Positions 2,162 to 63,982 of a stretch of 64,000 bases of DNA are shown in pieces (position 1 is the first letter of the stretch; each line of letters opens with the position of its first letter). The stretch is from Prosthecobacter algae (GTDB lineage: Bacteria; Verrucomicrobiota; Verrucomicrobiia; Verrucomicrobiales; Verrucomicrobiaceae), in contig NZ_BAABIA010000002.1 of NCBI RefSeq assembly GCF_039542385.1, forward strand, positions 1-64,000, given 5' to 3'. The translations under genes were made by a program, and so were the position numbers. The notes beneath the pieces are model-generated. The model saw only the letters and a program-made list of their open reading frames with translations. It was not told the DNA's origin and did not search any database.

Positions 2162-2374
2162 ATGACACAATCAACACAACCAAAACAGGCGACAGGCAAA
2201 TCACCAACTCACGTTGCCTATCACGTCCGCGAAAGAGCCAATAATGAATCATTCTGGACGCGTATTGGCAGCGCTTGGGCGCATTCCGACGGACAAGGTT
2301 TCAACATCCAGATTGAGACAGTCCCTCTCGATGGGCGCATCACCCTTCGCACAGTCTCAGAGCCAGCGAAATAA
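2162..2374 (+). CDS. small plasmid-type hypothetical protein (70 aa)
   Basis: A 70-residue protein with a conserved-looking core: THVAYHVRER, then SFWTRIGSAWAHSDGQGFNI and a VPLDGRITLR strand. Proteins of this appearance are common beside DNA-processing genes on plasmids and integrative elements of diverse proteobacteria, but I know of no assigned function. The start is well supported by a strong Shine-Dalgarno AGGAG at 2151-2155, seven nucleotides before the ATG. It is followed 55 nt later by a methylase with its own equally strong ribosome-binding site, which suggests co-transcription. No membrane segment or signal peptide is visible. Confidence 0.7.
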   Translation: MTQSTQPKQATGKSPTHVAYHVRERANNESFWTRIGSAWAHSDGQGFNIQIETVPLDGRITLRTVSEPAK

Positions 2375-2429
2375 ACACTCGAATCAACCGGGCGGGCCGC
2401 AGGTCCGCCGACATCAAAAGGAGAATATC

Positions 2430-3660: not shown

Positions 3661-4605
3661 TCACAGAGCTTTCGCGAATTCCTGAATTCGCTGAAGGATT
3701 TCAGCAAAGCTGGGACGCCCTTGGTAATACAGTGATTGGGTACTCTGATATGCCTTCTCGTAAATGCTGAAGACCTCCGAAGGACCGAGGATGAAGGCTT
3801 CGTTTGCAGTGATGTCGCGGTTTTCAGAACGAAACCGCCTCACCTTATGTGCATTATATTCATCCGTTCCGATGAATTCCTGAACAGAGATCTCACCGAG
3901 CAGGCAGTACACATCATAATAATGGCGCAGGAAGTTGGCAGGGAAATCGCCTGTCTCCTGCTGCTTGCGGAACTTCGTTGATATCGTCTGGAGCTTCTCT
4001 ACCAGAGTATAACCAGGATTATAACACAGCACGCCCATGGCACGGTTATCAATGAGTTTTACCATGCTGACCGCATGATCATACGCCCACGAACTGATGT
4101 CCCTGACCTCGTTCGGGGTTACATCATCAAAGCCGACCTCCAGCAAAACGCCGTCCTTGAGGTCGGACGCCATGCCAGTAACCTCTTGATAAGACAGTCG
4201 AATTCCGCCGCTGCGAAGGAGCTTCGTGTCATCGAATTCATAATCGCGATTTACCGCATGGATGCCGTCTATTTTAATGGCCTCACAAAGCCAGTCATAA
4301 AAGCGCCTACGGCTTTCGACATGAGCTTCCTTGTCATGGTTCCTGCCTGATTTCACCTCAAGATGTGGAGGCGGATCAATGCGAATATCAATATCCTCCG
4401 AAAAACGGTTGATGATGCCGAAGCCTTTTGAAAGGGAAGTTCCGCCTTTCAGTTCAAAGCGCATCCCAAGCTGCTGGAGACCATAAAGGCAATGCATGAT
4501 CCAATAATCCTTCTCAACCAGAACAGCCGCAATCCCCCTTTCATCTGAAACGATGCGAATGAGGTCTGCGAAATCCTTGTGGTTATGCAAAAAATCATCC
4601 GGCAT
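3661..4605 (-). CDS. abiEii: AbiEii-type nucleotidyltransferase toxin
   Basis: 314 aa of the AbiEii/MenA-like nucleotidyltransferase family, the toxin half of type IV AbiE phage-abortive systems. The signature is clear: ELKGGTSLSKG at residues 51-61 followed by RFSEDIDIRI at 67-76, which together provide the GS..K turn and the metal-binding acidic pair of the NTase fold. Characterised members modify tRNA or bind nucleotides and halt growth. The start codon lies inside the end of the upstream abiEi gene (11-nt overlap), so the two are translationally coupled, antitoxin first, as is typical. Length is close to family norm and no lesion is visible. Confidence 0.9.
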   Translation of the reverse strand: MPDDFLHNHKDFADLIRIVSDERGIAAVLVEKDYWIMHCLYGLQQLGMRFELKGGTSLSKGFGIINRFSEDIDIRIDPPPHLEVKSGRNHDKEAHVESRRRFYDWLCEAIKIDGIHAVNRDYEFDDTKLLRSGGIRLSYQEVTGMASDLKDGVLLEVGFDDVTPNEVRDISSWAYDHAVSMVKLIDNRAMGVLCYNPGYTLVEKLQTISTKFRKQQETGDFPANFLRHYYDVYCLLGEISVQEFIGTDEYNAHKVRRFRSENRDITANEAFILGPSEVFSIYEKAYQSTQSLYYQGRPSFAEILQRIQEFAKAL

Positions 4606-5188
4606 GACGAGTCCCCTCCATCATCGCAGCATCGAAAAACTTGCGTGTGCGCACCCTACCAAATTCATGGGCGATTTGACGCAGGGCTGTGCGATTTACC
4701 TGCCTTGCCTTTTCCTTGACCCTTGAAAGCAATGCAGCTCCATCTTCGGCCAGTTGTTCGATATTGTTCACCAAATCAACCAGCAGGAATTCCACAGAGA
4801 TCTTTTTCGGAAAGGACGGCCTGCGACGGAATTCAAAACTGCGCCCACCCAGCGTGAAATGCCCGTGGCGTTTGTGATTATACACAACGGTTTCGTTATA
4901 TAGCTGCGTAGCTCCGACTCCCAGGGTGTTGTAAGCATTGGGGGATGTGATCAAGAAACGATCATCTTTCAGAAACGCAGCTACGACGCTGGCGTTGTCA
5001 GCAGGCGCTTTGCCAAATGCAGTTTGCTTTGGATGCGAATACAAACCAGGAGCCAGCTTCACCAACTCACCCGAGGCCACAAGTTCTTTGATGTGTCGGT
5101 CCACGGCAGTTGACCACCTCGCCAGGTCTTCACGACGATACACCACCCCAGGCTTTAGGTGTTTGCGTAAAACATCCAGTTTATTCAT
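4595..5188 (-). CDS. abiEi: AbiEi-type antitoxin/transcriptional repressor
   Basis: 197 aa from the ATG at 5188; a GTG two codons earlier overlaps the Shine-Dalgarno sequence GAGG and is less likely. The N-terminal 60 residues form a winged helix (LARWSTAVDRHIKELVASG, then KLAPGLYSHP), followed by the AbiEi_4-like body with FLITSPNAYNTLGVG and VVYNHKRHG. AbiEi proteins bind inverted repeats in their own promoter and repress the operon. A good sigma-70-like promoter lies just upstream (5204-5232). It is coupled to the abiEii toxin by an 11-nt overlap. Confidence 0.87.
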   Translation of the reverse strand: MNKLDVLRKHLKPGVVYRREDLARWSTAVDRHIKELVASGELVKLAPGLYSHPKQTAFGKAPADNASVVAAFLKDDRFLITSPNAYNTLGVGATQLYNETVVYNHKRHGHFTLGGRSFEFRRRPSFPKKISVEFLLVDLVNNIEQLAEDGAALLSRVKEKARQVNRTALRQIAHEFGRVRTRKFFDAAMMEGTRHAG

Positions 5189-5203
5189 TTTCACCTCATA
5201 ACC

Positions 5204-5821: not shown

Positions 5822-5902
5822 GGAGGGAAAAGCCTTTCCCTCGCGCCTACGCTGTGCGGCGCTACCCATTCTAACGGGAGGTCTCCTGTAACGCCCTCGC
5901 CC
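5822..5902. repeat. dispersed 81-bp repeat, copy 1
   Basis: Starts GGAGGGAAAAGCCTTTCCCT and recurs with a few differences at 8543-8623. It contains two potential hairpins, GGAAA/TTTCC and ACGGGA/TCCTGT. Both copies lie in gaps between element genes, not inside any reading frame I believe. Confidence 0.8.
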
Positions 5903-8193: not shown

Positions 8194-8465
8194 ATCCCTC
8201 GCAATGTTTGATGCACATCAGCCGCAGAAAGCGTCTTTCCGACTTCCATATCTGTCAGGCCCTGACGAATGGATTTAAGTGTCTCCAGCTCCTCCATAGC
8301 CTCGATCATTTTCTCATAAGAGCGTTTGCCCAGTAGCACGGCTTCAGCCTTTCCATTGACCGTTAATACCTCAGGGCGGCCTGTTTTGTTTACCCGCAGA
8401 AGATGCGCTTTGGCGTTACGCTGAAATTCTGTCAGCGGGTGTATGTCCTGGATGTGAATCGTCAT
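8190..8465 (-). CDS. Phd/YefM-family antitoxin
   Basis: 91 aa. The first 50 residues show the Phd/YefM fold: HPLTEFQRNAKAHLLRVNKTGRPEVLTVNGKAEAVLLGKRSYEKMIEA (quoted in parts: TEFQRNAKAHL, PEVLTVNGKAEAVLL, YEKMIEAME). The C-terminal tail would neutralise ParE. It also acts as autorepressor in characterised systems. Coupled to the toxin by a 4-nt overlap and transcribed from a promoter with the TTGCAA -35 box seen at two other loci of this element. Confidence 0.87.
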   Translation of the reverse strand: MTIHIQDIHPLTEFQRNAKAHLLRVNKTGRPEVLTVNGKAEAVLLGKRSYEKMIEAMEELETLKSIRQGLTDMEVGKTLSAADVHQTLRGM

Positions 8466-8497
8466 TTGTGAACCCCACTAAATAAGCATTGAATTTC

Positions 8498-8526
8498 ATG
8501 TTACCATATTTTTGGGTGAATTGCAA
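8498..8526 (-). promoter_or_regulatory. promoter of the phd-parE operon
   Basis: Minus-strand TTGCAA (8521-8526), 17-nt spacer, TAACAT (8498-8503), about 33 nt upstream of the antitoxin ATG. Confidence 0.55.
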
Positions 8527-8542
8527 GTTCTCATAAGCCATC

Positions 8543-8623
8543 GGAGGGAAAAGCCTTTCCCTCGCACCTACGCTGTGCGGCGCTACCCATTCTAACGGGA
8601 AGTGTCCCGTAACGCCCTCGCCC
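8543..8623. repeat. dispersed 81-bp repeat, copy 2
   Basis: Second copy of the 5822-5902 repeat, in the same orientation. The hairpin ACGGGA/TCCCGT is perfectly paired here, where copy 1 has a G-U pair, so the stem is preserved although the sequence changed. Confidence 0.8.
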
Positions 8624-8944
8624 ACCGCATGGCGCAGGCAGTCTCTCCAAAACCGCTACCGCGCAGGAGAGCCAGCCCACGCCATTGCAGCCTTCTGCAT
8701 CACCAGATGAAGCTGCCTGATACGCTCCCGGCAAAGCCGTCCACTGCTCATTCACTTCATCCCATGATGATCCTTCCTGCCTAACGGCAGGTATTGCCGC
8801 CGCCCCGTTTTTTTCATCACTCGGCGGCTCTGAAGCCTTCAGACGTTCAGCCCGTCAAGGGCATCCAAAGGCTGTCCCTAAAGGGCACCCTCCTTTGAAC
8901 CCTCCCTATGACTGTCTGCCCGTTCCTCCGGCGGTTGGTCGGTA
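8624..8944. other. 320-nt leader region upstream of ardC
   Basis: No believable gene. It holds a small perfect hairpin CCTGCC-TAAC-GGCAGG at 8776-8791 and a run of GC-rich sequence leading to the ardC inverted repeat. An in-frame extension of ardC to 8908 is open but lacks a ribosome-binding site. Confidence 0.5.
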
Positions 8945-8979
8945 GGTTTTGCGCGCGCGTGCGTGCTTTTCGCAAAACC
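8945..8979. promoter_or_regulatory. inverted repeat upstream of ardC (copy 1)
   Basis: GGTTTTGCG (8945-8953) pairs exactly with CGCAAAACC (8971-8979) across an alternating GC/GT loop, ending 5 nt before the AGGAGG ribosome-binding site. The second ardC copy has the equivalent structure at 63950-63982, which argues for a conserved operator or RNA hairpin. Confidence 0.65.
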
Positions 8980-8997
8980 GAAACAGGAGGAACTAAC

Positions 8998-9900
8998 ATG
9001 AAGACATCAGACATCTATGAACAAGTAACAGACCGCATCATCACCCAGCTCGAACAGGGCATCGCCCCCTGGAAGTCGCCTTATTTTTCCAAGGTCGGAT
9101 TCCCCCGGAATTTCTCCACAGGCAAAGCCTATCAGGGCATTAACGTCTTTTTGCTTGGAAGCCACCGCTTCACCTCGCCCTACTTCCTCACCTTCATTCA
9201 AGCCAAGGAGCTTGGCGGGCATGTGCGCAAAGGCGAACGCGGTTCCCTTGTCGTCAAATACGGCACCTACACGAAGCAGGATGAAGACGCGCCAGCCCAG
9301 AACGAGGAAGAAGCCGAAACACGCCGCTTCCTCATGGGCTACACCGTGTTCCATGCCTCGCAGATCGAAGGCATCGAGTTCCCTGCCCCGGAGAACTTGC
9401 CGGAGCTTTCTCTGACTGAAAAGACCGACCGCGCCCGCGAGATCATCGCCGGGATGCCGAAGCCCCCAGTGATCCGTTACGGCAGCGCAATCCCCTGCTA
9501 TCGTCCCGCAACTGATAGCGTTCACATGCCGGAGCCCGGCTTTTTCAGCAGTGAGGAGGCACTTTTCTCAACCCTCTTTCATGAACTGGCTCACAGCACC
9601 GGCCACGCCTCACGGCTTGCCAGAACGTCCCTGCTTGAGAATAAAGGCATTGATGCGGAAGGCGACACCGCCCGCAAAGTCTATGCCGAGGAAGAACTGG
9701 TTGCCGAGATGGCCGCAGCCTTCCTGAATGCCCATGCAGGCATCATGGAAGATGAACACGCCAACTCTGCCGCCTACCTGCAAAGCTGGATAAACGCTCT
9801 CAAATCCAAGGACGCCAAAGGCTGGGTTATCCGCGCAGCCTCTCAGGCGCAAAAGGCAGCTAACCACATCCTCAACATTCAACCGGAGGTGCAGCCATGA
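8998..9900 (+). CDS. ardC: ArdC-type antirestriction protein (ssDNA-binding plus zincin-like domain)
   Basis: 300 aa from the ATG eight nucleotides after AGGAGG (8985-8990). The N-terminal ArdC ssDNA-binding domain (SDIYEQVTDRIITQLEQG, then PWKSPY and AYQGINVFLL) is followed by a zincin-like metallopeptidase domain with HELAHSTGH at residues 195-203 and YAEEELVAEMAAAFL near 249-263. ArdC proteins protect incoming single-stranded plasmid DNA against host restriction during conjugation. It is coupled by a 4-nt overlap to a 69-aa gene, which in turn overlaps a 46-aa gene. A diverged paralogue lies at 63031-63930 in opposite orientation. Confidence 0.93.
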   Translation: MKTSDIYEQVTDRIITQLEQGIAPWKSPYFSKVGFPRNFSTGKAYQGINVFLLGSHRFTSPYFLTFIQAKELGGHVRKGERGSLVVKYGTYTKQDEDAPAQNEEEAETRRFLMGYTVFHASQIEGIEFPAPENLPELSLTEKTDRAREIIAGMPKPPVIRYGSAIPCYRPATDSVHMPEPGFFSSEEALFSTLFHELAHSTGHASRLARTSLLENKGIDAEGDTARKVYAEEELVAEMAAAFLNAHAGIMEDEHANSAAYLQSWINALKSKDAKGWVIRAASQAQKAANHILNIQPEVQP

Positions 9901-10106
9901 GCGCGGCACTTCTCCCCCTCGATGATGCCGAGCTGATTGAATCTGTCAGCTTGAGCGATGCCGAGTTTGACGAGCTGGAAAGCCAGCTCGCCATTCGGGC
10001 CGCCTGCCTTGGCTGGACAGGCGACCCCATGCGCCAACCCGTGGCAGTTGTAGCAGCCACGGTGCGCGGCATCCTCGCCAATCGCACAACCTCAGCCAGT
10101 CGATGA
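9897..10106 (+). CDS. small hypothetical protein coupled to ardC (69 aa)
   Basis: 69 aa, acidic at the N-terminus (LPLDDAELIESVSLSDAEFDELESQ) and more hydrophobic after it. Starts inside the ardC stop codon (ATGA) and its own stop overlaps the next start in the same way. No recognisable domain. The second ardC module lacks this gene, so it is not required for the core unit. The tight double overlap supports it being translated. Confidence 0.65.
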   Translation: MSAALLPLDDAELIESVSLSDAEFDELESQLAIRAACLGWTGDPMRQPVAVVAATVRGILANRTTSASR

Positions 10107-10243
10107 ACGCCGTTGTGCAAATCACCGCTCCCCATCTGGGGAGCGTAAAAATCTATCACCGCGTCGTGTCTCTTTCCTGCAACATGGCGCATGGCAGGAA
10201 GCTGCAACTGCATATCGAAGCCCTGCCCCGGTCATATCGTTAA
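10103..10243 (+). CDS. 46-aa conserved mini-protein downstream of ardC
   Basis: 46 codons from the ATG at 10103, which overlaps the preceding stop (ATGA), to TAA at 10241-10243. The peptide begins MNAVVQITAPHLGSV and ends VVSLSCNMAHGRKLQLHIEALPRSYR. A 72-aa homologue follows ardC copy 2 (62816-63034): it begins MNALVRMTGPHKGA and ends AVSLSCRMAHDRKLHLHMEALPR, with an extra 25-residue middle part. Conservation of both ends in an independent copy, and the coupled start in both, make this a real gene rather than a chance frame. Function unknown; the Cys/His content of the C-terminal half might bind metal. Confidence 0.65.
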   Translation: MNAVVQITAPHLGSVKIYHRVVSLSCNMAHGRKLQLHIEALPRSYR

Positions 10244-10358
10244 TGACGGGGGCAGATGCCCGGCAACAGAAGCACCGCTCTCATTCGCTCGCTTTGCCAA
10301 AGGCCTGGTGGAGTCCCCGCCCTGCCCCGCCCTTGGGTGGCCGCATGGATGCGGCAGC

Positions 10359-10388
10359 TTGACTTCGCAAAGCGAAGTTTGTTATACT
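10359..10388 (+). promoter_or_regulatory. promoter with embedded operator for the prepilin gene
   Basis: TTGACT (10359-10364) and TATACT (10383-10388) are spaced by 18 nt. A perfect 7-bp inverted repeat ACTTCGC-AAA-GCGAAGT (10362-10378) sits between the two boxes, where a repressor would block polymerase. Confidence 0.65.
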
Positions 10389-10408
10389 TCCCTCACAGGA
10401 GAGGGAAT

Positions 10409-11167
10409 TTGCAAAATCATCGTTCATCACGTCAGGGCTTCACGCTCGTTGAACTGTCCATTGTGCTGGTTGTTATCGGTCTGCTTATAGGTGGGGTGCT
10501 GATTGGACAGAGCTTGATTGAGTCAGCAAGAATCAATGCACAGATAAGGCAGTTTCAGCAATTTGAGGTGTTAATAATGAATTTTAAAAGCAAATTCAAG
10601 TATCTGCCTGGAGACTCACCGATGTTCACCCCAGCCGGAAATGCTTCTGGACTGGTTAGGGGGTGCTGGTCAGGTTGTGGACCTTCTGGCGAAAGCCAGG
10701 GTTGGAACTTTAACGCAGAGATTGCCGCTTTTTGGAAACATGTTTCTGACGCAGGTTTTGTAGAGGAGAACTACATATTCACGGCAAATGACGGAAGGCC
10801 AGGAATTAATGTTCCAATAGCCGCATATAATGAAAAACCCGATACTGGTGTTTATGCAGCAAACCCAAATGACGACATTTCAACATATCTGAATGTCTGC
10901 TCACACCCCTCCGCAAGCGACTTAATGTGCGCTGATAGCGCTAGTCATAACGCATTCTCTGCCATGACTACACTCGCTATAGATAAAAAACTTGATGATG
11001 GCAGGCCTCGTGCTGGAGCCGTAACAGTTATGACTGGTCCATGGAACAATATGGGGGGCGGCCCAGGATGTGTTACTGGCAATAGCAACAGCGATAACGC
11101 TACTTATGATATAACATCTTCAAATAAAAATGCTTGTAATTTACGCTTGCGCTTAAATAAAAATTAA
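10409..11167 (+). CDS. type IV prepilin-like protein
   Basis: 252 aa starting at a TTG three nucleotides after GGAGAGGG; this gives a 10-residue basic leader (QNHRSSRQG) before the prepilin peptidase site G/FTLVEL, with Glu at +5, followed by the hydrophobic helix SIVLVVIGLLIGGVLIG. The C-terminal domain is pilin-like, with several cysteines (GCWSGCGPS; then NVCSHPS and LMCADS) that could form disulfides. No assembly ATPase, platform or secretin genes lie nearby, so processing would depend on host machinery. The coding sequence is clearly more AT-rich than the flanking element genes, suggesting separate acquisition. It could act in surface attachment or DNA uptake. Confidence 0.8.
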   Translation: MQNHRSSRQGFTLVELSIVLVVIGLLIGGVLIGQSLIESARINAQIRQFQQFEVLIMNFKSKFKYLPGDSPMFTPAGNASGLVRGCWSGCGPSGESQGWNFNAEIAAFWKHVSDAGFVEENYIFTANDGRPGINVPIAAYNEKPDTGVYAANPNDDISTYLNVCSHPSASDLMCADSASHNAFSAMTTLAIDKKLDDGRPRAGAVTVMTGPWNNMGGGPGCVTGNSNSDNATYDITSSNKNACNLRLRLNKN

Positions 11168-11200: not shown

Positions 11201-12514
11201 TTACAGCTTTTCGCCCCATTCTTTGATTCCGAGTAGTCTGGTTGGCGGACGCGTGGTCTTTGCCACTTCTGCAAAATCGCTGCCATCCAGTTTGACGCGA
11301 TTCAAACCATGCCGCGTTACAAACACGACCTGACCCACTGACTTCATCACCAAAAACACCGGGCCAGCATTGCGCTCCACCAAGCAAGGCTCAGGTGTGA
11401 TGCGTTGCTCTGGCTTGCCCACTTTCTTGAGCCAAGTTCCGCGCAGGCTCGAATCGGGCACATTTCGCGGATACATCAGCGTTTCATCATCAAGCCAGAC
11501 AAACATATCCACACCGGTTGGCATCTCCTCAAACTCCATCGTGTTCAAATCCAACAGCCGCAATCCGGCACTGCTCACACAGAAGAGGCGCTGCCCAGTC
11601 GGTGAAGGGGCCATGACAGCCTTGCAGGGCAATGGCAGAGCTTTGTCTGTCTGCAACTTGCCAGTAGTTCTGTCGAAAATGGCAAGGCTTTTGCCATCCA
11701 CCAGCAACGCACAGCGATTACCGTCAATCCATTGTGCATCTCTTACCTGGCTTTTCCCAATCGGGAATTTGAGAACCTCATCCGTCTGCACGTCATAGTG
11801 ATACACCTCATTGCCTTGCTGCCCCAGCAGCACCCTGCCATCAGGTGAACGCCTCTTTTGGATTCCGTCAGTCGGGATCCGAGTCGGCTTGACCTCGCCT
11901 GTTTCCAGATTGACCCGCAATTGCTGATTCAGGTTCCTGACCGCAATCACCTTGTCGGTCGCCATGATCAGGTTCTCAGCGAAATACTGCTCCAGAAAAA
12001 TGCCCATCGTGGTGATTTGACGCTCATTAACCAGCTTGAGCGCCAAGAGATCCACATCCGCCATCCATACATCCTTGGCTTTCGGATACATGGCCTGCTT
12101 GAATCCATCGGTGAACCCCACCGTATAGCGAGTGCTCAGCGCCGCCTCCTGTGTTCCATCCATCCCGTAACGGGCGATTCCTCGGGGAAAGGTTGCCAGC
12201 AGCTTCTTCGATTCCTTGTCATAAAACAGATCCTTGGGTCTGTCCTCAGAGATCCAGTCCTTGAACAGCACCTCCCCTGTATCGACATCAAAGAGGTCGT
12301 CATCCGCCAGGAAAAGCCGGTCAATTCTCTCCTCAACAACAGCCACCTTTTCAGCCAAAACTTCTTTGGCTATCGTTTCTTGAACCACAGCCTGTTCTCG
12401 CTTTTCAGGAGTGCCAAACAGCCACCACCATGAAAATATGGCTGTGCTGATTCCGATGACCCCAAGAACCAAGGCGACTTTGGGGAATGCTTTGATGTAG
12501 CGCCAGTTGAACAT
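11201..12514 (-). CDS. membrane-anchored beta-propeller-like protein of the relaxase operon
   Basis: 437 aa. A single N-terminal transmembrane helix (VALVLGVIGISTAIFSWWWLF, about 13-33) is followed by a charged linker (EKREQAVVQETIAKEVLAEK) and then repeated short beta segments of about 40 residues such as VLLGQQGNEVYHYDVQTDEV, CALLVDGKSLAIFDRTTGKL and LFCVSSAGLRLLDLNTMEFE, which look like WD40/YncE-type propeller blades. The domain would lie in the periplasm or outside. I do not recognise the family. Its ATG overlaps the preceding stop (TAATG), placing it last in the relaxase operon, so a role in transfer or in sensing mating state is possible but unproven. Confidence 0.65.
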   Translation of the reverse strand: MFNWRYIKAFPKVALVLGVIGISTAIFSWWWLFGTPEKREQAVVQETIAKEVLAEKVAVVEERIDRLFLADDDLFDVDTGEVLFKDWISEDRPKDLFYDKESKKLLATFPRGIARYGMDGTQEAALSTRYTVGFTDGFKQAMYPKAKDVWMADVDLLALKLVNERQITTMGIFLEQYFAENLIMATDKVIAVRNLNQQLRVNLETGEVKPTRIPTDGIQKRRSPDGRVLLGQQGNEVYHYDVQTDEVLKFPIGKSQVRDAQWIDGNRCALLVDGKSLAIFDRTTGKLQTDKALPLPCKAVMAPSPTGQRLFCVSSAGLRLLDLNTMEFEEMPTGVDMFVWLDDETLMYPRNVPDSSLRGTWLKKVGKPEQRITPEPCLVERNAGPVFLVMKSVGQVVFVTRHGLNRVKLDGSDFAEVAKTTRPPTRLLGIKEWGEKL

Positions 12515-12948
12515 TATTCGGAGGGGGTTTCGTCTTCGTCTTCTGCAAACCCCTTCGGCGGGGTAATCGTGATCTTTGAAATGAAAGTCGAGTTCTCTTT
12601 ATGGTCCTGCAGTTCGTGGTCCGCTTCCTTCACCCAGGCGACTCGCTTCTGTTTGATGCCATCAAACAACCTCGGCACCAGCCCTCTTCCCTCTATCGTT
12701 ACCAGATAACCGCCAAACTCGATGTTCAGCCCATTATCCGGGTCATAGACAATCCAGATGATGTCTGAATATGAAAAGCAGGTGCGCAGCCCGTCCCGCG
12801 TCTGGATCTCAAAGAAATGCTCCTGACTGGTCTCACCCACCAGGATCGAGAAAAACTTATCCTCCTGCTCTGTCGGCTGGGATGCAGGCACCGCAGATTT
12901 TTCAGCCTGCTTTCGTCTCAGAATCTCTTCAATCGTGTCAGAAGCCAT
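12514..12948 (-). CDS. hypothetical protein of the relaxase operon (144 aa)
   Basis: 144 aa. The N-terminal 25 residues are charged and helical (TIEEILRRKQAEKSA), the centre is beta-rich (HFFEIQTRDGLRTCFSYSDI, then WIVYDPDNGLNIEFGGYLVTI), and the C-terminus is acidic. The pattern of a small beta-barrel-like body is visible but I do not recognise a family. It starts 6 nt after the relaxase stop and its stop overlaps the next start by 1 nt, so the three genes are almost certainly one transcript. Confidence 0.65.
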   Translation of the reverse strand: MASDTIEEILRRKQAEKSAVPASQPTEQEDKFFSILVGETSQEHFFEIQTRDGLRTCFSYSDIIWIVYDPDNGLNIEFGGYLVTIEGRGLVPRLFDGIKQKRVAWVKEADHELQDHKENSTFISKITITPPKGFAEDEDETPSE

Positions 12949-12954
12949 AATTCT

Positions 12955-15900
12955 TTATTTGCGTGGAGTTGGCGGCGGCGGAGTTGCTGCCTTCTGTTTC
13001 ACTTCCTGTGCCACCTTAGCAGCTTGCTGAGTTGCCTTGCTAGCCTCGACGGCTTTTTGCTTCGTCGAATGGTCAGCAACTTTTGACAAGTTGCTTTGCT
13101 GCAACGCTTTTGGCTTTGCCTGAGTTTGCTGCACCGGCTTTGCCATGCCCTGGGTCGCCGTTTTTGTAGGCCCTGCCTTCTTTTGCTGGTTGTCGTTGGC
13201 GCTTTTGGCTGGAGCCACAGCCTTATCCCAGCCCGTCTTTTCCTTGAAGTGGGAAACAGCCGATTTGTAGGCGTTCACAAGCCGGTTCTGGCGGGGATTG
13301 GTCGCCTGCTTTGCCTCGCCCTTTTCAGCTTTAGGCTCTGGCTTCTTTTCGACCTCAGGAGATTTTTTATTGGTCTCCTTCCCTGCCTGCATTTTCTCTT
13401 TGGTCGAAGTTTTTTGCTCAGTCGGGCGGAGAAAACTCCGCCTCTTGTTGGCGAGGTTCACGCTCTTTTTCTCGGTCCCTTGCGGATGACCTTTGGAGCG
13501 GCTTCGACCATCTGCACTGACCAGCCCGCGCCGCATCTCGACATATTGCCGCCAGCTCATATCGGCATCTTTCTTCGACACATCTTGCTTACGTGCATCC
13601 AGAAGGTTTTTCACATGGTTGCGAGCCTCCCCCTCAGCCTTGCGACTCTGGACGACCTCGCGCCACTGCTTGTTTGGGAGGTCAGAATTCATAGAGGAAA
13701 TATCGCGTTTGCTTATCCCTGCCAGCTCCAGCGCCGATTGGCGGGTCGCTGTATTGCCGACCGCCTCTTGCAGTCCAAGGCGGCTGTCTGTGTAGATCCT
13801 GATGCTCTCTTTGCCACGGCTGACGGAAACATAAAACTGCTCCCGTGAGCTGGCAACGAAGGAATCCTCGCTTTGTGCAACCAAAACGTCGCGAACGCTT
13901 TTGCTCTGTGAAGAGTGCGAAGTCTGGCAATAACCATAGGTGAAGTGTCCGTGGTTGCGGTCCAATTCAGCGCCGTTTGAAAGCACGATGTCGCCGTTCT
14001 TTTTGAACTTCTCGACCGTGAAAACATTGCCATTATTAAGCCTACGATCATTGGCGCTTTTTCCATTACGTGTGATTCGAATTTGCTCACCTTTGCCGAC
14101 ACGGATTTCGCGTTCCTCAAAGACCTGAAATCGCTCCGCGAATTTAATCGGCAGCGGCATCTCACGACCCGTTGAAGACCTTACCAAGGTAATACCGTTT
14201 TCAGAGCGTCCTGTAACAGAAAATATCTCCCCACGGCGGATGCCCTGCGCATTTTGATGGAACTGAAGGACCTGCCCCTCGCGGTAATTCTCCATCCGCT
14301 TCTTGTCTGCACTCTCCCACTGCAAGTTATGCAGCCGGATGAAACTGCGCTCCTCCCCCAGTTTCCCAGCGCTGCGCTTCGCATCTCGAATGGCATCTGT
14401 AACCTTGGCGCTTTCGGCATGAGTTGGAGACACCACCAGTGGCGGGGTGCCTTTGCGGCTCAATTCCATGAAGTCCGCCGCCAATGCCCGGTATCGTTCG
14501 CCATCATCCGCCACCTCGATGATGGCGCCAAGCTTATCCAGGCTCATGAAGGCATTTGGCAAATCGCCCCGGCTCAATGCCGCCACCGCCTTTTTATAGA
14601 CCTCGCCTTCCTGGCGGCGAATTTCGGTTACTTCGGCAATTTTCAGTCCGGCATATTTTTGCAGGAGGCGAAAGGCATCCCCACGAGCGACAGGCGCATG
14701 CTGCCCACTATCGCCTGTCAGGATGATCCTGGTGGAGCTTCCGGCAACCTGCATCAGTTCCCACATTTCACGGGCACCCAGCAAACCCGCTTCATCAATC
14801 CAGATGACCTGTCCCCGCGTCTGGCGTTGCAGGTTTTTGTTCAATAGCAAATGCGCGACCGTGTTAGCCCCAGCGAAACCAGACTCTTGCAGCGTCTCGC
14901 GTGATGCAACTGCCGAGGGAGCAAAAGCAAAGACGCGGCGTCCACTCGCCTCTATTTGCTCAGCCGCTTCCTTCATGAGTGTGGTCTTGCCAACCCCAGC
15001 TCCACCCCTGATGGCAATGACCTGATCCGTTGAGCCCAAGATGTGGCGGACTGCCCCTTTTTGCTCAGCCGACAGCTTCTCATTCCCAAAATGGATTCCG
15101 CCTTTGTTGATGGCGGCACACATGCCCCGACCAGACCGGACAAAGTTGATCAAAGCCACCTCCTCAGCCAACACGTCTAAAGAGGTGCAGAGAACCGTGT
15201 CCTTCACCTTGCCCACGACCATTTCCCGGCGAGACAATTCCCGCCAAACTTGCTCCGGGGTAATTTGCCCCACCCCATAGCGGAGCGCCTCAGCAACCAG
15301 CCGCCTTTGCTCGACCACGGAATTTCTGGCAAACATCTTCTCGGTCGCGTAATCCACCGCCAAAGAAGCCGTGATTTTCTCCGCAGGGCGATTCCCGTCC
15401 CGGTCGAAACGCACCTTCGAGATGATGACCTTTTCTGATTCTGTCAGACGCACTCCCCAGGCGGCAAGCAGGTCGGTATAGGTCATACCATGCCGTTTGC
15501 CCTCACGGGTGGCAGCCCCTAACCCATCTTTCGATTTGGCATCTGTGATGCCTTTTTCTTCCGCAAAGCGCTCAATCTGAGCCGTCCGGCGTGAGAACTT
15601 ATCAATGACAGATTGAGGGATGCCTTCGATTTCCCAGCCTGCCTTCGTCCGGCGGATGCCATAGCCGATGTCCGCCAGTTTCGCCGTCAGTCTGGCATGA
15701 AAGGCAGCCTCACTGTATGGAGCCTCCTTTTTGATGTCGCCGAATTGGGCGGCTTTCCAGCGCTGCTCAACCCCATCAAAAGTGGCATTGAAGGTGAAGC
15801 AGTGGACATGCAGATGAGGGTCGGGAATGCCCCCCACGGGACGGGCAGTGAAATGCACAAACTCAGCCCAGGCAAGATTCCCGGTGGTGCGGTTGACCGC

Positions 15901-16299
15901 CGCCCCGGAGCGCCTGACTCTTGCCCCTGCCCGCTCTTCCATCTCGGTCATGGTCTCTTGAACTGCCGACCTGAACAGCCTCAAGATGTCATCATCACCC
16001 GTGAGGGCATGCAGCACAGAGAGACTTTTTGGCGCATGAAAGTTGATGTCATAACCTACCCGCCGGTCCGCTTTAGTTCGCGGAGTCAGCCGCTCGCCAG
16101 TCGTCGGATGACGGTTTTCAACCAGGGCTGCAAAAGCCTCAGGAGTAACCCCGCCAGAAAGTCCAAGCCTCTCTGCCGCCTTGCCATACCACTTGCCCGC
16201 GACTTCCTGCCCCTCCGAATAATAGTCCTCTCGCTTCAGCCCTTCGGCATAATATTGGCGGGCAGCCGCCGCGCTCTGATGAGACACGACTCGTAACAT
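12955..16299 (-). CDS. MobF/TrwC-type conjugative relaxase with helicase domain
   Basis: 1114 aa. The N-terminal TrwC relaxase domain has tyrosines YY at 16-17 and 26-27 (candidate nicking residues) and the metal-binding HUH motif in PDPHLHVHCF at 159-168. A RecD-like helicase domain follows, with Walker A GGAGVGKTT at about 432-440, Walker B VIWIDEAGLL near 498-507 and downstream helicase motifs including GYCQTSHSSQSKSV. The last 200 residues are low-complexity, rich in Lys, Ala and Gln. It nicks oriT, stays bound to the 5' end and unwinds the strand during transfer. The upstream gap (16300-16581) is the likely oriT. First gene of a three-gene operon. Confidence 0.95.
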   Translation of the reverse strand: MLRVVSHQSAAAARQYYAEGLKREDYYSEGQEVAGKWYGKAAERLGLSGGVTPEAFAALVENRHPTTGERLTPRTKADRRVGYDINFHAPKSLSVLHALTGDDDILRLFRSAVQETMTEMEERAGARVRRSGAAVNRTTGNLAWAEFVHFTARPVGGIPDPHLHVHCFTFNATFDGVEQRWKAAQFGDIKKEAPYSEAAFHARLTAKLADIGYGIRRTKAGWEIEGIPQSVIDKFSRRTAQIERFAEEKGITDAKSKDGLGAATREGKRHGMTYTDLLAAWGVRLTESEKVIISKVRFDRDGNRPAEKITASLAVDYATEKMFARNSVVEQRRLVAEALRYGVGQITPEQVWRELSRREMVVGKVKDTVLCTSLDVLAEEVALINFVRSGRGMCAAINKGGIHFGNEKLSAEQKGAVRHILGSTDQVIAIRGGAGVGKTTLMKEAAEQIEASGRRVFAFAPSAVASRETLQESGFAGANTVAHLLLNKNLQRQTRGQVIWIDEAGLLGAREMWELMQVAGSSTRIILTGDSGQHAPVARGDAFRLLQKYAGLKIAEVTEIRRQEGEVYKKAVAALSRGDLPNAFMSLDKLGAIIEVADDGERYRALAADFMELSRKGTPPLVVSPTHAESAKVTDAIRDAKRSAGKLGEERSFIRLHNLQWESADKKRMENYREGQVLQFHQNAQGIRRGEIFSVTGRSENGITLVRSSTGREMPLPIKFAERFQVFEEREIRVGKGEQIRITRNGKSANDRRLNNGNVFTVEKFKKNGDIVLSNGAELDRNHGHFTYGYCQTSHSSQSKSVRDVLVAQSEDSFVASSREQFYVSVSRGKESIRIYTDSRLGLQEAVGNTATRQSALELAGISKRDISSMNSDLPNKQWREVVQSRKAEGEARNHVKNLLDARKQDVSKKDADMSWRQYVEMRRGLVSADGRSRSKGHPQGTEKKSVNLANKRRSFLRPTEQKTSTKEKMQAGKETNKKSPEVEKKPEPKAEKGEAKQATNPRQNRLVNAYKSAVSHFKEKTGWDKAVAPAKSANDNQQKKAGPTKTATQGMAKPVQQTQAKPKALQQSNLSKVADHSTKQKAVEASKATQQAAKVAQEVKQKAATPPPPTPRK

Positions 16300-16581: not shown

Positions 16582-18138
16582 ATGGACCGACCTCCGCCCC
16601 CTTTAAATAGTCGAACTGGCCATGGGCATCCGACCCAGCAGGTCGTCAAAGACTGGCCGGATAATGACGAGGAGCTTCTCGATTTCAGCCCCGACGCCAA
16701 GAACCGGCAGAGGGAGAATTTGTGGCTGATGAAGGATGCCTTTGAAGGGGTGCAGATCTTCGGTGGGACAGGTTCCGGCAAATCCTCAGGCAGCGGGCAG
16801 GCCATCGCCCGCGCTTTCATGGAAGCCAATCTGGGAGGCTTGGTTCTGACGGCAAAAACCGATGAGGTGCTTACCTGGAAACAATACGCGAAGGAGGCAG
16901 GGAGAGAGACAGATTTGCTCATTGTGGAGCAGGGCGCACCGCTCAAATTCAACTTCCTCCGGTATGAGCTGAGGCGTCCAGGCATAGGGGCAGGGCATAC
17001 GGAAAATCTTGTTAATCTGTTTTGCAGCGTCCTCGAGGCCTCAGACCGGAGGCATGGTCAGGGCGGGGGCAATGACAGCTATTGGCAGCGAACTTTGAAA
17101 CAACTTTTGCGCAACGCCATTGATCTGGCCATCCTGGCGGCTGACGATGTGGACCTGCCATCGCTCTATAAAATCATCGCCACCGCACCGCGTTCGATTG
17201 CCGAGGCCGCAGACGAAAAATGGCAGGCTGATTCGGTCTGCTTCACGTTGATCGAGCACTCCAGAGACAAAGCCAAGGAAAAGGGGAGGATGCAGGATTA
17301 CGAACTGACGCGGGATTATTGGCTCAAGGAGTTTCCAGGCCTGGCCATCGAAACCCGCTCTGTGATTGTCTCCACCTTCACCAGCATGGCCGATTGTTTC
17401 CTGCGCGGCATGCTTCGGGATCTGTTCTGCACGGATCTCAATTTCACCCCAGAGGACAGCTTTAACGGCAGGATCATCATTTTGAATCTGCCCGTGAAGG
17501 AATACAACGAGCTGGGCCAATTCGCCCAGGTGCTATTCAAATTCGTCTGGCAGAGGGCTGTCGAACGCCGAATCCCGCCAGGCGTTCCCCGCGCTCAGGC
17601 AGAGAAAACCATCCGGCCGGTTTTTCTTTGGGCGGACGAATCCCAGTTCTTCGTCAATTCTTATGACGCTTTGTTCCAAAGCACCGCCCGCAGCTCGCGG
17701 GCTTGCACCGTTTACTTGACGCAAAATCTGCCCAGCTACCTGGCCACCTTTTCCGGTGCCAATTCCAGGGCCGAGGCGGAGACGTTTCTGGGCAATCTCC
17801 AGACCAAGATTTTCCACGCCAATGGCGACCCGACCACCAATAATTGGGCGGCTGACTCCATCGGAAGAACACGGCAGGTTCAATTTTATGGTGGCATGTC
17901 CGAGGGGACCGGAGCCCGAGGCGGGGGAGGGATGAACCAGAGTGCAGGGGGCAGCCAGGTCTTTGAGTATCTGATTCAGCCCCAGGAGTTTACCATGCTG
18001 CGCACAGGCGGGGAGGAATGTGATTTGCAGGTCGATGCCATCATTTTCCAAGGAGGGCGGCGTTGGGTTACCGCCAGCAAAACCGCCAAGACAACGCAGA
18101 ACTTTATCCGGCATGTCTTCCCCCAGCTTTATTCATGA
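16582..18138 (+). CDS. TraD/TrwB/VirD4-type conjugation coupling ATPase
   Basis: 518 aa. Walker A is FGGTGSGKSSGSGQ at about 60-73 and Walker B RPVFLWADESQFF at about 345-357. The segment FHANGDPTTNNWAADSIGRT followed by glycine-rich GGMSEGTGARGGGGM matches the C-terminal part of the TraD/TraG-like superfamily. Coupling proteins bring the relaxase-DNA complex to the secretion channel. I see no N-terminal transmembrane pair, which most VirD4 proteins have; the following overlapping gene encodes a membrane protein that could supply the anchor. No VirB-type channel genes are in the window, so transfer would need a helper system. Confidence 0.88.
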   Translation: MDRPPPPLNSRTGHGHPTQQVVKDWPDNDEELLDFSPDAKNRQRENLWLMKDAFEGVQIFGGTGSGKSSGSGQAIARAFMEANLGGLVLTAKTDEVLTWKQYAKEAGRETDLLIVEQGAPLKFNFLRYELRRPGIGAGHTENLVNLFCSVLEASDRRHGQGGGNDSYWQRTLKQLLRNAIDLAILAADDVDLPSLYKIIATAPRSIAEAADEKWQADSVCFTLIEHSRDKAKEKGRMQDYELTRDYWLKEFPGLAIETRSVIVSTFTSMADCFLRGMLRDLFCTDLNFTPEDSFNGRIIILNLPVKEYNELGQFAQVLFKFVWQRAVERRIPPGVPRAQAEKTIRPVFLWADESQFFVNSYDALFQSTARSSRACTVYLTQNLPSYLATFSGANSRAEAETFLGNLQTKIFHANGDPTTNNWAADSIGRTRQVQFYGGMSEGTGARGGGGMNQSAGGSQVFEYLIQPQEFTMLRTGGEECDLQVDAIIFQGGRRWVTASKTAKTTQNFIRHVFPQLYS

Positions 18139-19013
18139 AGGACAGGCAATCCCCACAAACGCCGCTGCAAATGCGGGTGCCATTTGTCAGCGCGGCACTG
18201 CACTGCATTTCGATGACGGTCATCGTGTTTCTGCGCAGTTCCTTCGGCTACTCCTACCTGCGGCCAAAAAGCGTCTTCTTTGCCTTCGCTTGGGCCTTCG
18301 TGCTGTTTTTCATTTATGCCTGGAAGGAAAAGGATGTTTGGCAGGAATATCGTCTGATGTGCCTCTATGGCGCGGCCAGCATCTTCCTTTATCTCACCCA
18401 TATGCTCAGAGCATTCTTCGGTGAGCTGTTCCGCGGGGGAGCACATGATAATGACTCAGGCACACCGCATACGCTTCGGGTGCTGCGGATGCTCGGCAGA
18501 CCTTGCACACCGAATTTCGAGATGAAATGGCATATCTGGGTCGAGCCGATTTTTGTTTTCCTGGCAGGCCTTTTTCTGGGCGTGGTCGTTAAAGAACGCC
18601 ATCTCTCTTATTGGCTCGTCTTCACCGCTCCCTGTCTTTCTGTCAAAGAGTTGCTCAACTACTGGTTCCAGGTTCGCCAGAAAAAGAGGCATAAAGACTC
18701 CAGAGACGATGCTGAAGACATTTTCGAGGATGAACCCACCACCACCCCAGTGGATGCCCCCAAACCTATCGGGAAAGCTAAAATCCGCCGCGCCAGATCC
18801 AGCACCCGTTCAGCAGCTCACGAAATCACAGAAAGGCAGCATGCCCAGGTTTTGAGGCTGATGCCTCCTTATCGTTTGGATGAAGCGGAGCGGAATTACG
18901 ATAAGTTGATCAAGCAAGCTCATCCTGATCCAAATGAGGATCTCGACTCAGATGAAGGACTTGTCGCACAGCTCAATGAAGCGATTTCATTTTTTCGCCG
19001 AACCCACGGTTGA
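18135..19013 (+). CDS. membrane protein with C-terminal J-domain-like segment
   Basis: 292 aa from the ATG that overlaps the coupling-protein stop (ATGA); earlier in-frame starts would overlap that gene heavily. Three to four hydrophobic helices are visible (for example VFFAFAWAFVLFFIYAW, then IFLYLTHMLRAFFG and PIFVFLAGLFLGVVV) within the first 200 residues, then a basic/Pro-rich linker, and a C-terminal segment (about 240-292) reading LDEAERNYDKLIKQAHPDPNE, with the AHPD that matches the HPD signature of DnaJ proteins, followed by LVAQLNEAISFFRR as helix III/IV. A J-domain would recruit DnaK. The pairing suggests a split coupling protein in which this gene supplies the membrane part. Function is inference. 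Confidence 0.7.
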   Translation: MKDRQSPQTPLQMRVPFVSAALHCISMTVIVFLRSSFGYSYLRPKSVFFAFAWAFVLFFIYAWKEKDVWQEYRLMCLYGAASIFLYLTHMLRAFFGELFRGGAHDNDSGTPHTLRVLRMLGRPCTPNFEMKWHIWVEPIFVFLAGLFLGVVVKERHLSYWLVFTAPCLSVKELLNYWFQVRQKKRHKDSRDDAEDIFEDEPTTTPVDAPKPIGKAKIRRARSSTRSAAHEITERQHAQVLRLMPPYRLDEAERNYDKLIKQAHPDPNEDLDSDEGLVAQLNEAISFFRRTHG

Positions 19014-20189
19014 GCTGGACCCTTTCTTCGATGACTTCACCTCAAAGCGGATGGCTTTCAGATCGTAACCCAAGCTCTCCCATGCCTGCATGAGCCTCGG
19101 CTTGTATTGGATTTCCACGGTATCGACAATGAACTGTGTCGATGCGCGATAGGTGAGGGTGCCATCCTCATAGCCGACCAGATTCAAGATCCTGATCCAG
19201 GCATTCACCGTCGCATCCCCAAGATGTTTGTTGAGGATTTCCAAAACGTTCTCCCACGCCTCTTCCAGAGGCGTTTTCTCAATCAATGCCATTTGCACCT
19301 CCCGGTCAGCAGCGGGCAATTTCTCCGCGAGAGGTCTTTTATCCGTCCTCTCCATCAAGAGCATATCTTTGCCTTGAACGGAGCTGACCTTTTCAAGGCG
19401 AACCCCAGGAAGCTCATTCTTTTTGATCAGCTTCCTCAGCGTGCTGGCATAATGTTTGTATTCCTGCTGGGAAGCCGATTTGAGATAAAGACTTTTGAAC
19501 GTCTCTTTCCAAATGCCAGCACCTCCTCCGGTGGCTTTACGGGCATACAAATACAACCAGCGTTCCACTCCCCCAGGAATCTCAAAATATCGCTTATCCA
19601 GAGTCAGGACATGAAAGTTCTGGATGCTCTCAAATAACCATTCAGCGAGTACCACCTCAATGCCGCGCACTTCGCCTTGCTCCTCTGTGATCTCCCATTC
19701 TGTGATCCACGAAAACTGTTTAATTCGGTTTCGTGTCCGTTTGCCAATTTCGGCGCGAACCGTGGTCTGAATATTGGTCGTTTTCAAACGGTTAAGCGCG
19801 TCCTTGAGTCGGTCATAGGCTGTCCCGTGGGGAGCTATTTTCAACCAGGCAAAGAACTGATACGGCGTGAAGTGAATCCTTCGGGATGTTGCCAGGCCCA
19901 GGCGTTGAGCATCTACCCATTGGGAAATGGCAAATAGCAGCAAGTCTTGGTCATGGATCGTGGCGATACCTCCATGCTCTCTGCTTCCTGTAATCCGAAC
20001 TGACTCAGTCATTCCAGTTTTCTGATCCACATATTTGTGATCAATAGGCTCCGTCCTGCCCGGAACTAAACTAAACCAATTGCGCGACATCAAGTCTATC
20101 TGGTCTTTTGCAGCGACATCGGCAGCGGAAACTGTAAACCGTGTAAGGTCTTGATGTTCCTTGATTCCACCCTCGATTTTCCTGCCCAT
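18987..20189 (-). CDS. RepA-type plasmid replication initiator
   Basis: 400 aa. The N-terminal two thirds resemble the replication-initiator A (RPA) family: LMSRNWFSLVPGR, then GIATIHDQDLLLFAISQW, RIHFTPYQFFAWL and a winged-helix region with YFEIPGGVERWLYLYARKAT. The C-terminal 80 residues (EEAWENVLEILNKHLGDATV, then WIRILNLVGYEDGTLTYRAS) look like a DnaA N-terminal domain, a fusion that would contact DnaB or DnaA. Immediately upstream lie eleven iterons and an AT-rich stretch. The 3' end overlaps the convergent J-domain gene by 27 nt. The start codon is embedded in a small inverted repeat (20184-20198), suggesting autoregulation. Confidence 0.88.
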   Translation of the reverse strand: MGRKIEGGIKEHQDLTRFTVSAADVAAKDQIDLMSRNWFSLVPGRTEPIDHKYVDQKTGMTESVRITGSREHGGIATIHDQDLLLFAISQWVDAQRLGLATSRRIHFTPYQFFAWLKIAPHGTAYDRLKDALNRLKTTNIQTTVRAEIGKRTRNRIKQFSWITEWEITEEQGEVRGIEVVLAEWLFESIQNFHVLTLDKRYFEIPGGVERWLYLYARKATGGGAGIWKETFKSLYLKSASQQEYKHYASTLRKLIKKNELPGVRLEKVSSVQGKDMLLMERTDKRPLAEKLPAADREVQMALIEKTPLEEAWENVLEILNKHLGDATVNAWIRILNLVGYEDGTLTYRASTQFIVDTVEIQYKPRLMQAWESLGYDLKAIRFEVKSSKKGSSSTVGSAKK

Positions 20190-20799: not shown

Positions 20800-20854
20800 T
20801 TGCGAGAAAACTCGCAAGCTCGCAAACGTGATTGCGGTGTTGCAACATTGCAAC
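20800..20854. promoter_or_regulatory. inverted repeats upstream of parA (possible parS/operator)
   Basis: TTGCGAG-AAAA-CTCGCAA (20800-20817) and GTTGCAA-CA-TTGCAAC (20839-20854). The second is nearly the same as GTTGCAA-TA-TTGCAAT at 16465-16480 beside the relaxase, which suggests one DNA-binding protein controls both the transfer and the partition genes. Confidence 0.55.
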
Positions 20855-20936
20855 CGACCCCAAAATACGAAGCTTCAGGAGGATGCAAAAGCTCAGGAAG
20901 CTTCCGAGGCCAATCACATTCATTTATGATGACCGT

Positions 20937-21560
20937 ATGATTTACGGTCTAACAAATTCTAAAGGCGGCGTTGGCAAAACGACGATTGCCGTCCACTTAG
21001 CAGCTTGGCTGGTCAAAAAGAAACGGACAGTCATTTTCATTGATGCTGATCCTCAATCTTCCGCCTCGCAGTGGATCAATGAACTCGATCTGGATATTCA
21101 GCTCGAAAAACTGTCCGAACCGGAGGAGATAATTCGTCGAGTCGCAGAACTGGCGACTGACGCTAATGACATCGTCATCGATGGTCCCGCTGGGCTTTCC
21201 ACAACCACACGGGCGATCATGTTGCGGTCAGACCGTGTATTTCTTCCCTGTGGGCCATCCATTCTCGATCTCCGCGCAGCTTCCAAAGCCGTGGTTTTGC
21301 TGCGTGAAGCCCAAAAATCTCGGAAGGGTCCTCCTATTGGAACTATCATTCCGAACAAACTGCAAAAACGTGGTCGCCTCAGCCGTGAAATGCTCGGCGC
21401 TGCACAAAAGCTCGGTGTTCCTTTGTTGGCCGGACTCTCGCAGCGCCAGAGCTTTGTCGATGCAGCAGGGCAGGCGAAAGTGGTCTGGCAAATGGGAGCC
21501 TCAGCGCTCGTGGCTTCTCACGAAATGCAGCAACTCATGAAGGAGATGACCCGTGGTTAA
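20937..21560 (+). CDS. parA: ParA-family partition ATPase
   Basis: 207 aa from the ATG at 20937; the frame extends upstream but the extension lacks resemblance to the family and crosses the operator repeats. The deviant Walker A SKGGVGKTT occupies residues 8-16, followed by VIFIDADPQSSASQW (Walker A' region) and IVIDGPAGLSTTTRAIMLRS (Walker B region) near 77-96. Short ParA proteins of this type segregate low-copy plasmids together with a small DNA-binding partner. The next gene overlaps its stop by 8 nt and is that likely partner. Confidence 0.92.
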   Translation: MIYGLTNSKGGVGKTTIAVHLAAWLVKKKRTVIFIDADPQSSASQWINELDLDIQLEKLSEPEEIIRRVAELATDANDIVIDGPAGLSTTTRAIMLRSDRVFLPCGPSILDLRAASKAVVLLREAQKSRKGPPIGTIIPNKLQKRGRLSREMLGAAQKLGVPLLAGLSQRQSFVDAAGQAKVVWQMGASALVASHEMQQLMKEMTRG

Positions 21561-60909: not shown

Positions 60910-60979
60910 AAAGACGAGGTTGGCAAAATCAATTGTGCCTAAGTAAGGCTGAAACCTCTATCCACATTGGTTCTCAACG

Positions 60980-61009: not shown

Positions 61010-61066
61010 TTCGGGTGTGGTGGTTTTCAGTGGTGAAAAGTGGTCGATTTCACTGGGAAAAACGGG

Positions 61067-61094: not shown

Positions 61095-61106
61095 TGCACT
61101 GCAAAA

Positions 61107-63949: not shown

Positions 63950-63982
63950 GTTTTGCGCAAAGCACTCGCTCGCGCGCAAAAC
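63950..63982. promoter_or_regulatory. inverted repeat upstream of ardC (copy 2)
   Basis: GTTTTGCGC (63950-63958) and GCGCAAAAC (63974-63982), 9-bp perfect arms, ending (on the minus strand) 8 nt before the AGGAGG. Equivalent in position and sequence to 8945-8979. Confidence 0.65.

Follow-up and report, generated by a model that had tools for sequence, protein, structure and literature searches.

The first 64,000 nucleotides of contig NZ_BAABIA010000002.1 of Prosthecobacter algae (the window in what follows; the contig is 828 kb long, the genome 6.1 Mb) contain two copies of a unit composed of a structured leader, the gene ardC and two small open reading frames (ORFs), sORF-A and sORF-B, with a terminator-like hairpin in many copies. 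We consider the chance somewhat better than even (probability about 0.55) that this unit is a transfer-establishment (anti-restriction) operon in which sORF-B, hereafter also called the mini-gene, encodes a second, independent anti-defence protein. Within Verrucomicrobiaceae the unit is carried by plasmids, or elements resembling plasmids, that encode a TrwC-type relaxase, and the order leader, ardC, sORF-A, sORF-B is found again in sister genomes. According to the proposed scheme, drawn by analogy with known plasmids, the leader would give early, transient expression when the element enters a new cell, ArdC would blunt type I restriction, and sORF-B, co-produced with ArdC, would protect the element independently of it. 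The putative anti-defence role of sORF-B is favoured by genomic context only. Such tiny genes behind ardC are likely to be skipped by routine annotation.

Both window ardC genes can be assigned by sequence to the ArdC antirestriction family, as each matches both of its domains (PF08401 and PF18818), in agreement with an earlier sequence-only reading of this DNA that had placed ardC copies at 8998-9900 and 63031-63930. Both translations contain HELAH, the HExxH motif of the C-terminal zincin-like metallopeptidase domain. Copy 1 is arranged on the forward strand as leader, ardC, sORF-A (69 aa) and sORF-B (46 aa), and copy 2 on the reverse strand as leader, ardC and sORF-B (72 aa), with sORF-A absent. 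The same reading had noted a 9-bp inverted repeat followed by AGGAGG ahead of each ardC, as well as a likeness of the 46-aa and 72-aa products at both ends. Both observations hold, and the repeat proved to be one hairpin (H3) of a larger conserved leader. The reported overlap of the mini-gene start with the preceding stop codon (ATGA) is real in both copies, but its partner in copy 1 is the stop codon of sORF-A, a gene absent from that account, and not the stop of ardC. Copy 1 has two such overlaps, ardC stop with sORF-A start and sORF-A stop with the start of the 46-aa ORF; within the window, the mini-gene starts on the ardC stop in copy 2 only.

A four-sequence profile of sORF-B retrieved ten full-length copies, the window's included, from 68 genomes of the family (matches in G417:C1051, G397, G394:C19 and G435, with E-values of 0.007-0.06, were left out of the count). 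Nine of the ten lie behind an ardC that is 79-100% identical to copy 2, six with sORF-A in between and three directly (copy 2 and genomes G434 and G440), and in these three the start of sORF-B overlaps the ardC stop. Such recurrence exceeds what chance would give. The pairwise ratio of nonsynonymous to synonymous substitution rates (dN/dS) among the ten 72-codon copies ranges from 0.05 to 0.29 (pairs giving a nonzero ratio), and the corresponding pooled ratio of polymorphisms (pN/pS) is 0.28 in frame, with values of 0.45-1.89 in the other five frames, four of them above 1. The checks proposed by the sequence-only reading included conservation of the frame next to other ardC genes and dN/dS; the first found an in-frame sORF-B behind 9 of 14 complete close ardC copies, and the second indicated purifying selection on the 72-aa form, with no pairwise value above 0.29. 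The claim that the mini-protein is a genuine component stands for the 72-aa form, judged by gene order and purifying selection, and lacks support for the 46-aa form, apparently a decaying deletion derivative. By these measures of sequence evolution the 72-aa sORF-B is a genuine protein under purifying selection.

An AlphaFold2 model of the 72-aa form built from 8 sequences (predicted local distance difference test, pLDDT, 90.1) comprises a strand at residues 3-17, a strand at 20-31, a short strand at 42-44, a helix at 47-61 and a strand at 64-69. The protein is confidently modelled as a small beta-beta-alpha-beta fold with no clear relative. Searches with the window copies gave a best E-value of 0.077 in Pfam (12.9 bits against a cut-off of 23) and no match in NCBIfam or PADLOC; the ten members searched against PHROGs reached at best an E-value of 0.004, with two of the ten members matching a family without a named function, and the best E-value against PDB by sequence was 1.2. 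In comparisons with VIA-align, the best matches of the model included the anti-CRISPR AcrIF5 (Z 5.5, root-mean-square deviation, rmsd, 3.1 over 60 residues; equalled by unrelated folds) and YegP (DUF1508; Z 5.6, rmsd 2.5 over 61 residues), with 8-12% identity and with Z-values in the range below 8, which may reflect just a shared arrangement. These matches, like those to NDUFS4-like chains (Foldseek, best E 4e-3) and to viral proteins by fold, were set aside as too weak.

Of the 14 complete close ardC copies, 9 are followed by a full-length sORF-A (64-69 aa); the gene is broken in G190, reduced to a scar in G417 and absent in copy 2, G434 and G440, where ardC and the mini-gene overlap directly. 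Its pairwise dN/dS has a median of 0.19 and a maximum of 0.47 (9 sequences, 35 of 36 pairs usable), which indicates a protein under purifying selection as well. The model shows three helices (pLDDT 82); a fold search gave nothing with an E-value below 6, and no family was matched in Pfam, NCBIfam, PHROGs or PADLOC (best PHROG E 0.088).

The 46-aa ORF of copy 1 is made up of the stretches that correspond to codons 1-17 and 47-72 in the 72-aa form, together with three additional residues; it lacks two of the four strands because codons 18-46 (29 codons) are deleted. It also carries five changes (G9A, A14S, A50V, D60G and H64Q) at sites that are invariant in eight full-length sequences. The same deletion is found in G187, where the ATG and the frame are lost; in G417 the ardC is intact, but only a scar is left of the two small genes behind it. 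By sequence, the 46-aa ORF is probably a decaying relic of sORF-B and likely inactive.

The leader is about 200 bp long, 84% identical between the two window copies over 172 bases, and conserved in sister genomes too. Its 36-bp core box, allowing up to 2 mismatches, was found at 14 sites in 12 of the 68 genomes, with none in a reversed-pattern control. Nine sites lie ahead of ardC and one ahead of the mini-gene (G394); the others precede a 92-aa gene and a degraded gene in G399, a spot with the ardC missing in G410 and a contig end in G420. In G396:C275, G408, G427 and G388 the box is swapped for a different sequence able to form the same stem, and G066 is intermediate. Visual inspection allowed a counterpart of H3, 5-12 bp long, to be placed in 19 of 19 leaders, although in G394 and G399 its sequence is unrelated. 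On sequence comparison, the leader is conserved and also precedes genes other than ardC. Two further ideas were discarded: a search of 8400-10400 of the window against Rfam gave one chance match only, and an origin of transfer (oriT), suggested by the palindromes, is unlikely with three copies on one contig.

Stems P1 and P2, scored in 14 leaders (164 cells), are paired in 90.2% of the cells on the coding strand and in 97.6% on the template strand (row L100, which is about one column out of register in A8 and partly in A9, was kept in both strand counts). The template strand pairs better because A-C or C-A pairs of the coding strand are G-T pairs on the template strand; a hand count of P2 in 19 leaders gave 15 of 152 cells as G-T on the template against 0 on the coding strand, with just 3 distinct states. 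The numbers of paired and doubly changed cells and the covariation score exceeded those of 500 of 500 shuffles on both strands. The pairing of H1 (68 of 68 cells) and H3 (153 of 156 cells) is no test, because the arms were picked by eye; in G406 the script assigned H1 and the 5' arm of H3 to other positions. Folding energies, with the template strand more stable in 7 of 9 leaders, were not used, as this strand is G-rich and the comparison had no shuffle control.

Two modes of action of the leader can be weighed against these data. It may act as RNA, as an attenuator or anti-read-through element like EGeRS1 of pLS20. According to PMC8708921, EGeRS1 is found at the same place relative to its genes, contains inverted repeats, is present more than once on the plasmid and prevents read-through. 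H3 directly before the ribosome-binding site in ardC leaders is consistent with such a role, while the wobble pairs favour the other strand; we regard the RNA mode as possible, though short of even odds. Slightly less probable, in our view, is a single-strand promoter of the Frpo/ssi kind, active on the incoming strand before second-strand synthesis. In its favour are the conservation of a hairpin that precedes more than one candidate anti-defence gene, the odd pairs of the H2 stems, which are G-T on the template strand, and the common direction of all three G399 leaders with the relaxase and coupling-protein genes. However, the stems show few independent changes, ardC and the relaxase are opposite in the element of the window, and the pLS20 authors, in the part of their report consulted (PMC8708921), judged a single-strand promoter highly unlikely for similar sequences.

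The dependence of sORF-B on ArdC was assessed from their distribution. A survey of the 68 genomes gave 39 ardC matches in 28 genomes. The adjacency count used the 14 complete copies at 77-100% identity (G396:C300, at 81% and on a contig end, was left out), and for the remaining 24 matches the profile search of the same genomes gave no further full-length sORF-B. Behind the 14 copies we found nine intact mini-genes, one 46-aa form, one relic (G187) and three cases with none (G066, G190 and G417). Of 30 ardC loci viewed, 25 are more distant; two of these (L025 and L029) had hardly any downstream sequence, and no mini-gene was seen in the others, the more distant ardC genes having other neighbours. 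In the phylum set, 24 of 387 genomes have ardC, and just two of the 24, the window's genome and G187, also have a mini-gene match; a match in G146 (E 0.005) was not among the relatives counted, and a candidate in G130 (L005) was dropped because it is interrupted by stops and runs antisense within an ORF of 672 aa.

sORF-B also occurs away from ardC. In G394 it lies behind the same leader, with no adjoining ardC and a coupling-protein gene next; the one ardC of this genome is 49% identical and on another contig. Distant relatives, 35-37% identical to copy 2, are encoded in G038, between RadC (PF04002, 4e-39) and ArdA (PF07275, 9e-25), and in G101, between RadC and a weak DUF2958 match; neither genome has an ardC match, and in the family of G038 only G038 itself, of 8 genomes, has an sORF-B match. 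The suggestion of the sequence-only reading that the mini-protein is a cofactor of ArdC is weakened by these loci and by intact ardC genes without sORF-B. We therefore consider it unlikely that sORF-B is a dedicated partner of ArdC (a chaperone, inhibitor or cofactor) kept in step by translational coupling, and the notion of an ArdC-only partner was set aside in view of G394, G038 and G101. Residence in an ardC unit of nine of the ten full-length copies and the start-stop overlap in three genomes speak for a partner; sORF-B genes without a neighbouring ardC, and intact ArdC without intact sORF-B in G066, G190, G417 and G187, speak against it.

Still less likely is that sORF-B regulates the establishment genes as a small protein targeting the leader or the RNA transcribed from it. 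Nucleic-acid binding is common among small mixed alpha/beta folds, and G394 keeps sORF-B with a leader and no ardC beside it, but leaders are also kept in genomes without an sORF-B match (G190, G399, G066 and G410), and sORF-B matched no DNA- or RNA-binding family. It is most improbable that the mini-gene merely results from DNA hairpins, located at codons 9-14 and at the stop codon, and encodes no protein. In 6 of the 10 full-length copies the final codons are constrained by the palindrome CTGCCCCGNTAGGGGCAG at the stop codon, but dN/dS is low across the gene, the predicted fold is confident, and two remote relatives keep the protein pattern without these palindromes.

The hairpin at codons 9-14 (10127-10144 in copy 1) is perfect in copies 1 and 2 and in the G187 relic, with different letters, even though two of these three mini-genes encode a decaying protein. 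As a conserved element it was nonetheless rejected: it is perfect also in G434, G440 and G406, but is not kept in G396, G408, G388, G403, G427 and G394.

Several observations weigh against an establishment operon with sORF-B as an independent anti-defence protein. The mini-gene is dispensable, as no intact one accompanies 5 of the 14 complete ardC copies of the close group. Beyond the family, the 387 genomes of the phylum yielded just two distant relatives, and the close relatives named in a pattern-limited scan, seven loci from metagenome assemblies (Verrucomicrobiaceae 4, Phragmitibacter 1, Verrucomicrobia 1 and Verrucomicrobiales 1), are all from Verrucomicrobia. No relative of sORF-B was found in 72,556 plasmids (tblastn, best E about 2) or, by pattern-limited scans, in viral contigs, and neither sORF-A nor the leader was found in the plasmid collection or the viral contigs. 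The fold matches of the sORF-B model are too weak and point to no function. The relaxase of the copy-1 element is oriented opposite to ardC, so that a leading-region location of the ardC unit is no more than putative. Finally, the covariation seen in the aligned leader stems is thin: 7 and 8 of 500 shuffles reached the number of doubly changed pairs (3), and 60 and 28 of 500 matched the count of pair types; after a slide by one column the coding-strand score was still 0.129, compared with 0.130; and the five doubly changed cells all come from two leaders that are related to each other (G396 and G388).

Coordinates of the features are collected in Table 1. Within the copy-1 element, the order of ardC unit, two genes without assigned function and relaxase recurs in six other genomes. 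The two genes (437 and 144 aa, window 11201-12948) lie behind the relaxase gene in all seven loci with their clusters. Another carrier is the contig G399:C15 (35,519 bp), whose ends share an exact 95-bp terminal repeat, so that the molecule is in all likelihood circular, with 35,424 bp. Like the copy-1 element, it has genes for a TrwC relaxase, a coupling protein, an RPA initiator and ParA; its ArdC is 60% identical. Three leaders are present, one each before ardC, a 92-aa gene and a degraded gene, and all share their direction with the relaxase and coupling-protein genes; the third leader runs over the circle junction directly into ardC.

Table 1. Positions of the ardC units, their leaders and neighbouring transfer and maintenance genes (window numbering unless stated otherwise)
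Feature	Position	Strand	Remarks
ardC copy 1, 300 aa	8998..9900	+	PF08401 5e-35, PF18818 4e-27
ardC copy 2, 299 aa	63031..63930	-	PF08401 2.5e-32, PF18818 3e-28
sORF-A, 69 aa	9897..10106	+	ATGA overlap with ardC stop; GGAGG upstream
sORF-B copy 1 (mini-gene), 46 aa	10103..10243	+	internally deleted, 29 codons
sORF-B copy 2 (mini-gene), 72 aa	62816..63034	-	intact; ATGA overlap with ardC stop
Terminator-like hairpin, copy 1, spanning mini-gene end	10223..10255	+	seen in sequence by inspection
Terminator-like hairpin, copy 2, across mini-gene stop codon	62809..62828	-	GCTGCCCCGATAGGGGCAGC then T-run; by inspection
Leader hairpin H1, copy 1	8796..8828	+	GCCGCC/GGCGGC; for 12 of 19 leaders, arms selected visually
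Leader hairpin H2 / core box, copy 1	8852..8912	+	CCGTCAAGG...TCCAAAGG-CTGTCCCTAAAGGGCACCCT-CCTTTGAA...TGAC
Leader hairpin H3, copy 1	8945..8979	+	arms GGTTTTGCG 8945-8953 and CGCAAAACC 8971-8979; just before ribosome-binding site
Leader hairpin H3, copy 2	63950..63982	-	arms GTTTTGCGC/GCGCAAAAC
Leader H2, copy 2	contig 64016-64077		just past window end
TrwC-type relaxase/helicase	12955..16299	-	PF08751 6e-70; element carrying copy 1
Coupling protein (VirD4/TraD type)	16582..18138	+	PF12696 and PF02534, 2e-6 each
Replication initiator (RPA family)	18987..20189	-	PF10134 1e-55
ParA-type ATPase	20832..21560	+	

Further genes and repeats were observed around these units. The 92-aa protein behind a G399 leader (SGDWG...WIITE.DRS.TT.LLP; L095:12825-13103, G399:C15:22824-23102) had no Pfam match in the stretch submitted and no PHROG match; look-alikes, recognised by eye, are found behind distant ardC genes in L014 and L019, and it is a candidate establishment gene. 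An 81-nt repeat at 5822-5902 and 8543-8623 (95% identical) flanks the 5.9-8.5 kb region that separates the ardC unit from the AbiE genes, ORFs resembling its translations sit, judged by eye, by small cargo genes in other genomes, and it may mark the borders of a cassette. The AbiE-like pair (3661-5194) consists of an AbiEii nucleotidyltransferase (PF08843) and a DUF6088 partner. The copy-1 element also encodes an orphan DNA methylase (N6_N4_Mtase, 2214-3179), a homologue of which lies directly behind the mini-gene in G403 (L065:1541-2296); methylation could offer additional protection against restriction. In three genomes the protein encoded after the ardC unit contains a stretch like that of prepilins (GFTLVELSIVLVVIGLLIGG or similar) (10256-11167; L066:5383-6144; L008). 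Near ardC copy 2 are an integrase gene (60906-62144) and, outside the window, the genes of type I restriction HsdR, HsdS and HsdM (L052:9985-19383; contig 69984-79382), with an AAA_13 protein between hsdR and hsdS, so that restriction genes and a gene directed against restriction are found close together.

Establishment units that counter restriction and have a structured leader are known. ArdC of R388 is a metalloprotease that binds single-stranded DNA, is needed in the recipient and counters an hsdRMS system, as described in the excerpted text of PMC7213743. Both window ardC genes resemble it in their two domains, and copy 1 in its proximity to transfer genes; unlike R388 ardC, they head a unit with one or two small genes outside known families, and no such genes appear where that text mentions "downstream" (0 times) or "operon" (2 times). 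In pLS20, the excerpts of PMC8708921 describe structured, repeated sequences (EGeRS1) ahead of ardC and other establishment operons, and a gene, 81c, after ardC in its operon, most such genes being without an assigned function. The leader resembles these sequences in having several inverted repeats directly before the ribosome-binding site of ardC and in occurring several times per plasmid, but it is about 200 bp long instead of 420-751 bp, comes from another phylum and is likened to them by position and repeats, not by sequence; moreover, the incoming strand is the non-template strand in pLS20, whereas here it is the template strand to which the wobble pairs point tentatively. According to PMC11541004, anti-defence genes are found in the leading regions of plasmids, in part controlled by Frpo/ssi single-strand promoters, and with these the leader shares the hairpin ahead of anti-restriction genes and the several copies on one plasmid. 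In literature on ArdC and antirestriction, leading regions, single-stranded-DNA promoters and conjugative plasmids of Verrucomicrobia, seen in excerpt, neither the small genes nor the leader are described among the matches listed, and both the small proteins and the leader appear to be new.

A bolder reading, which we find doubtful, is that plasmids of Verrucomicrobiota have an establishment regulon of their own, with a single-strand promoter unrelated to Frpo, and that sORF-B is a new family of small anti-defence proteins accompanying ArdC, ArdA or RadC. The present analysis adds two small-protein families under selection to the anti-restriction units of mobile elements in Verrucomicrobia, whose plasmids seem little studied, and the 36-bp box provides a sequence signature that marks candidate establishment and anti-defence genes.

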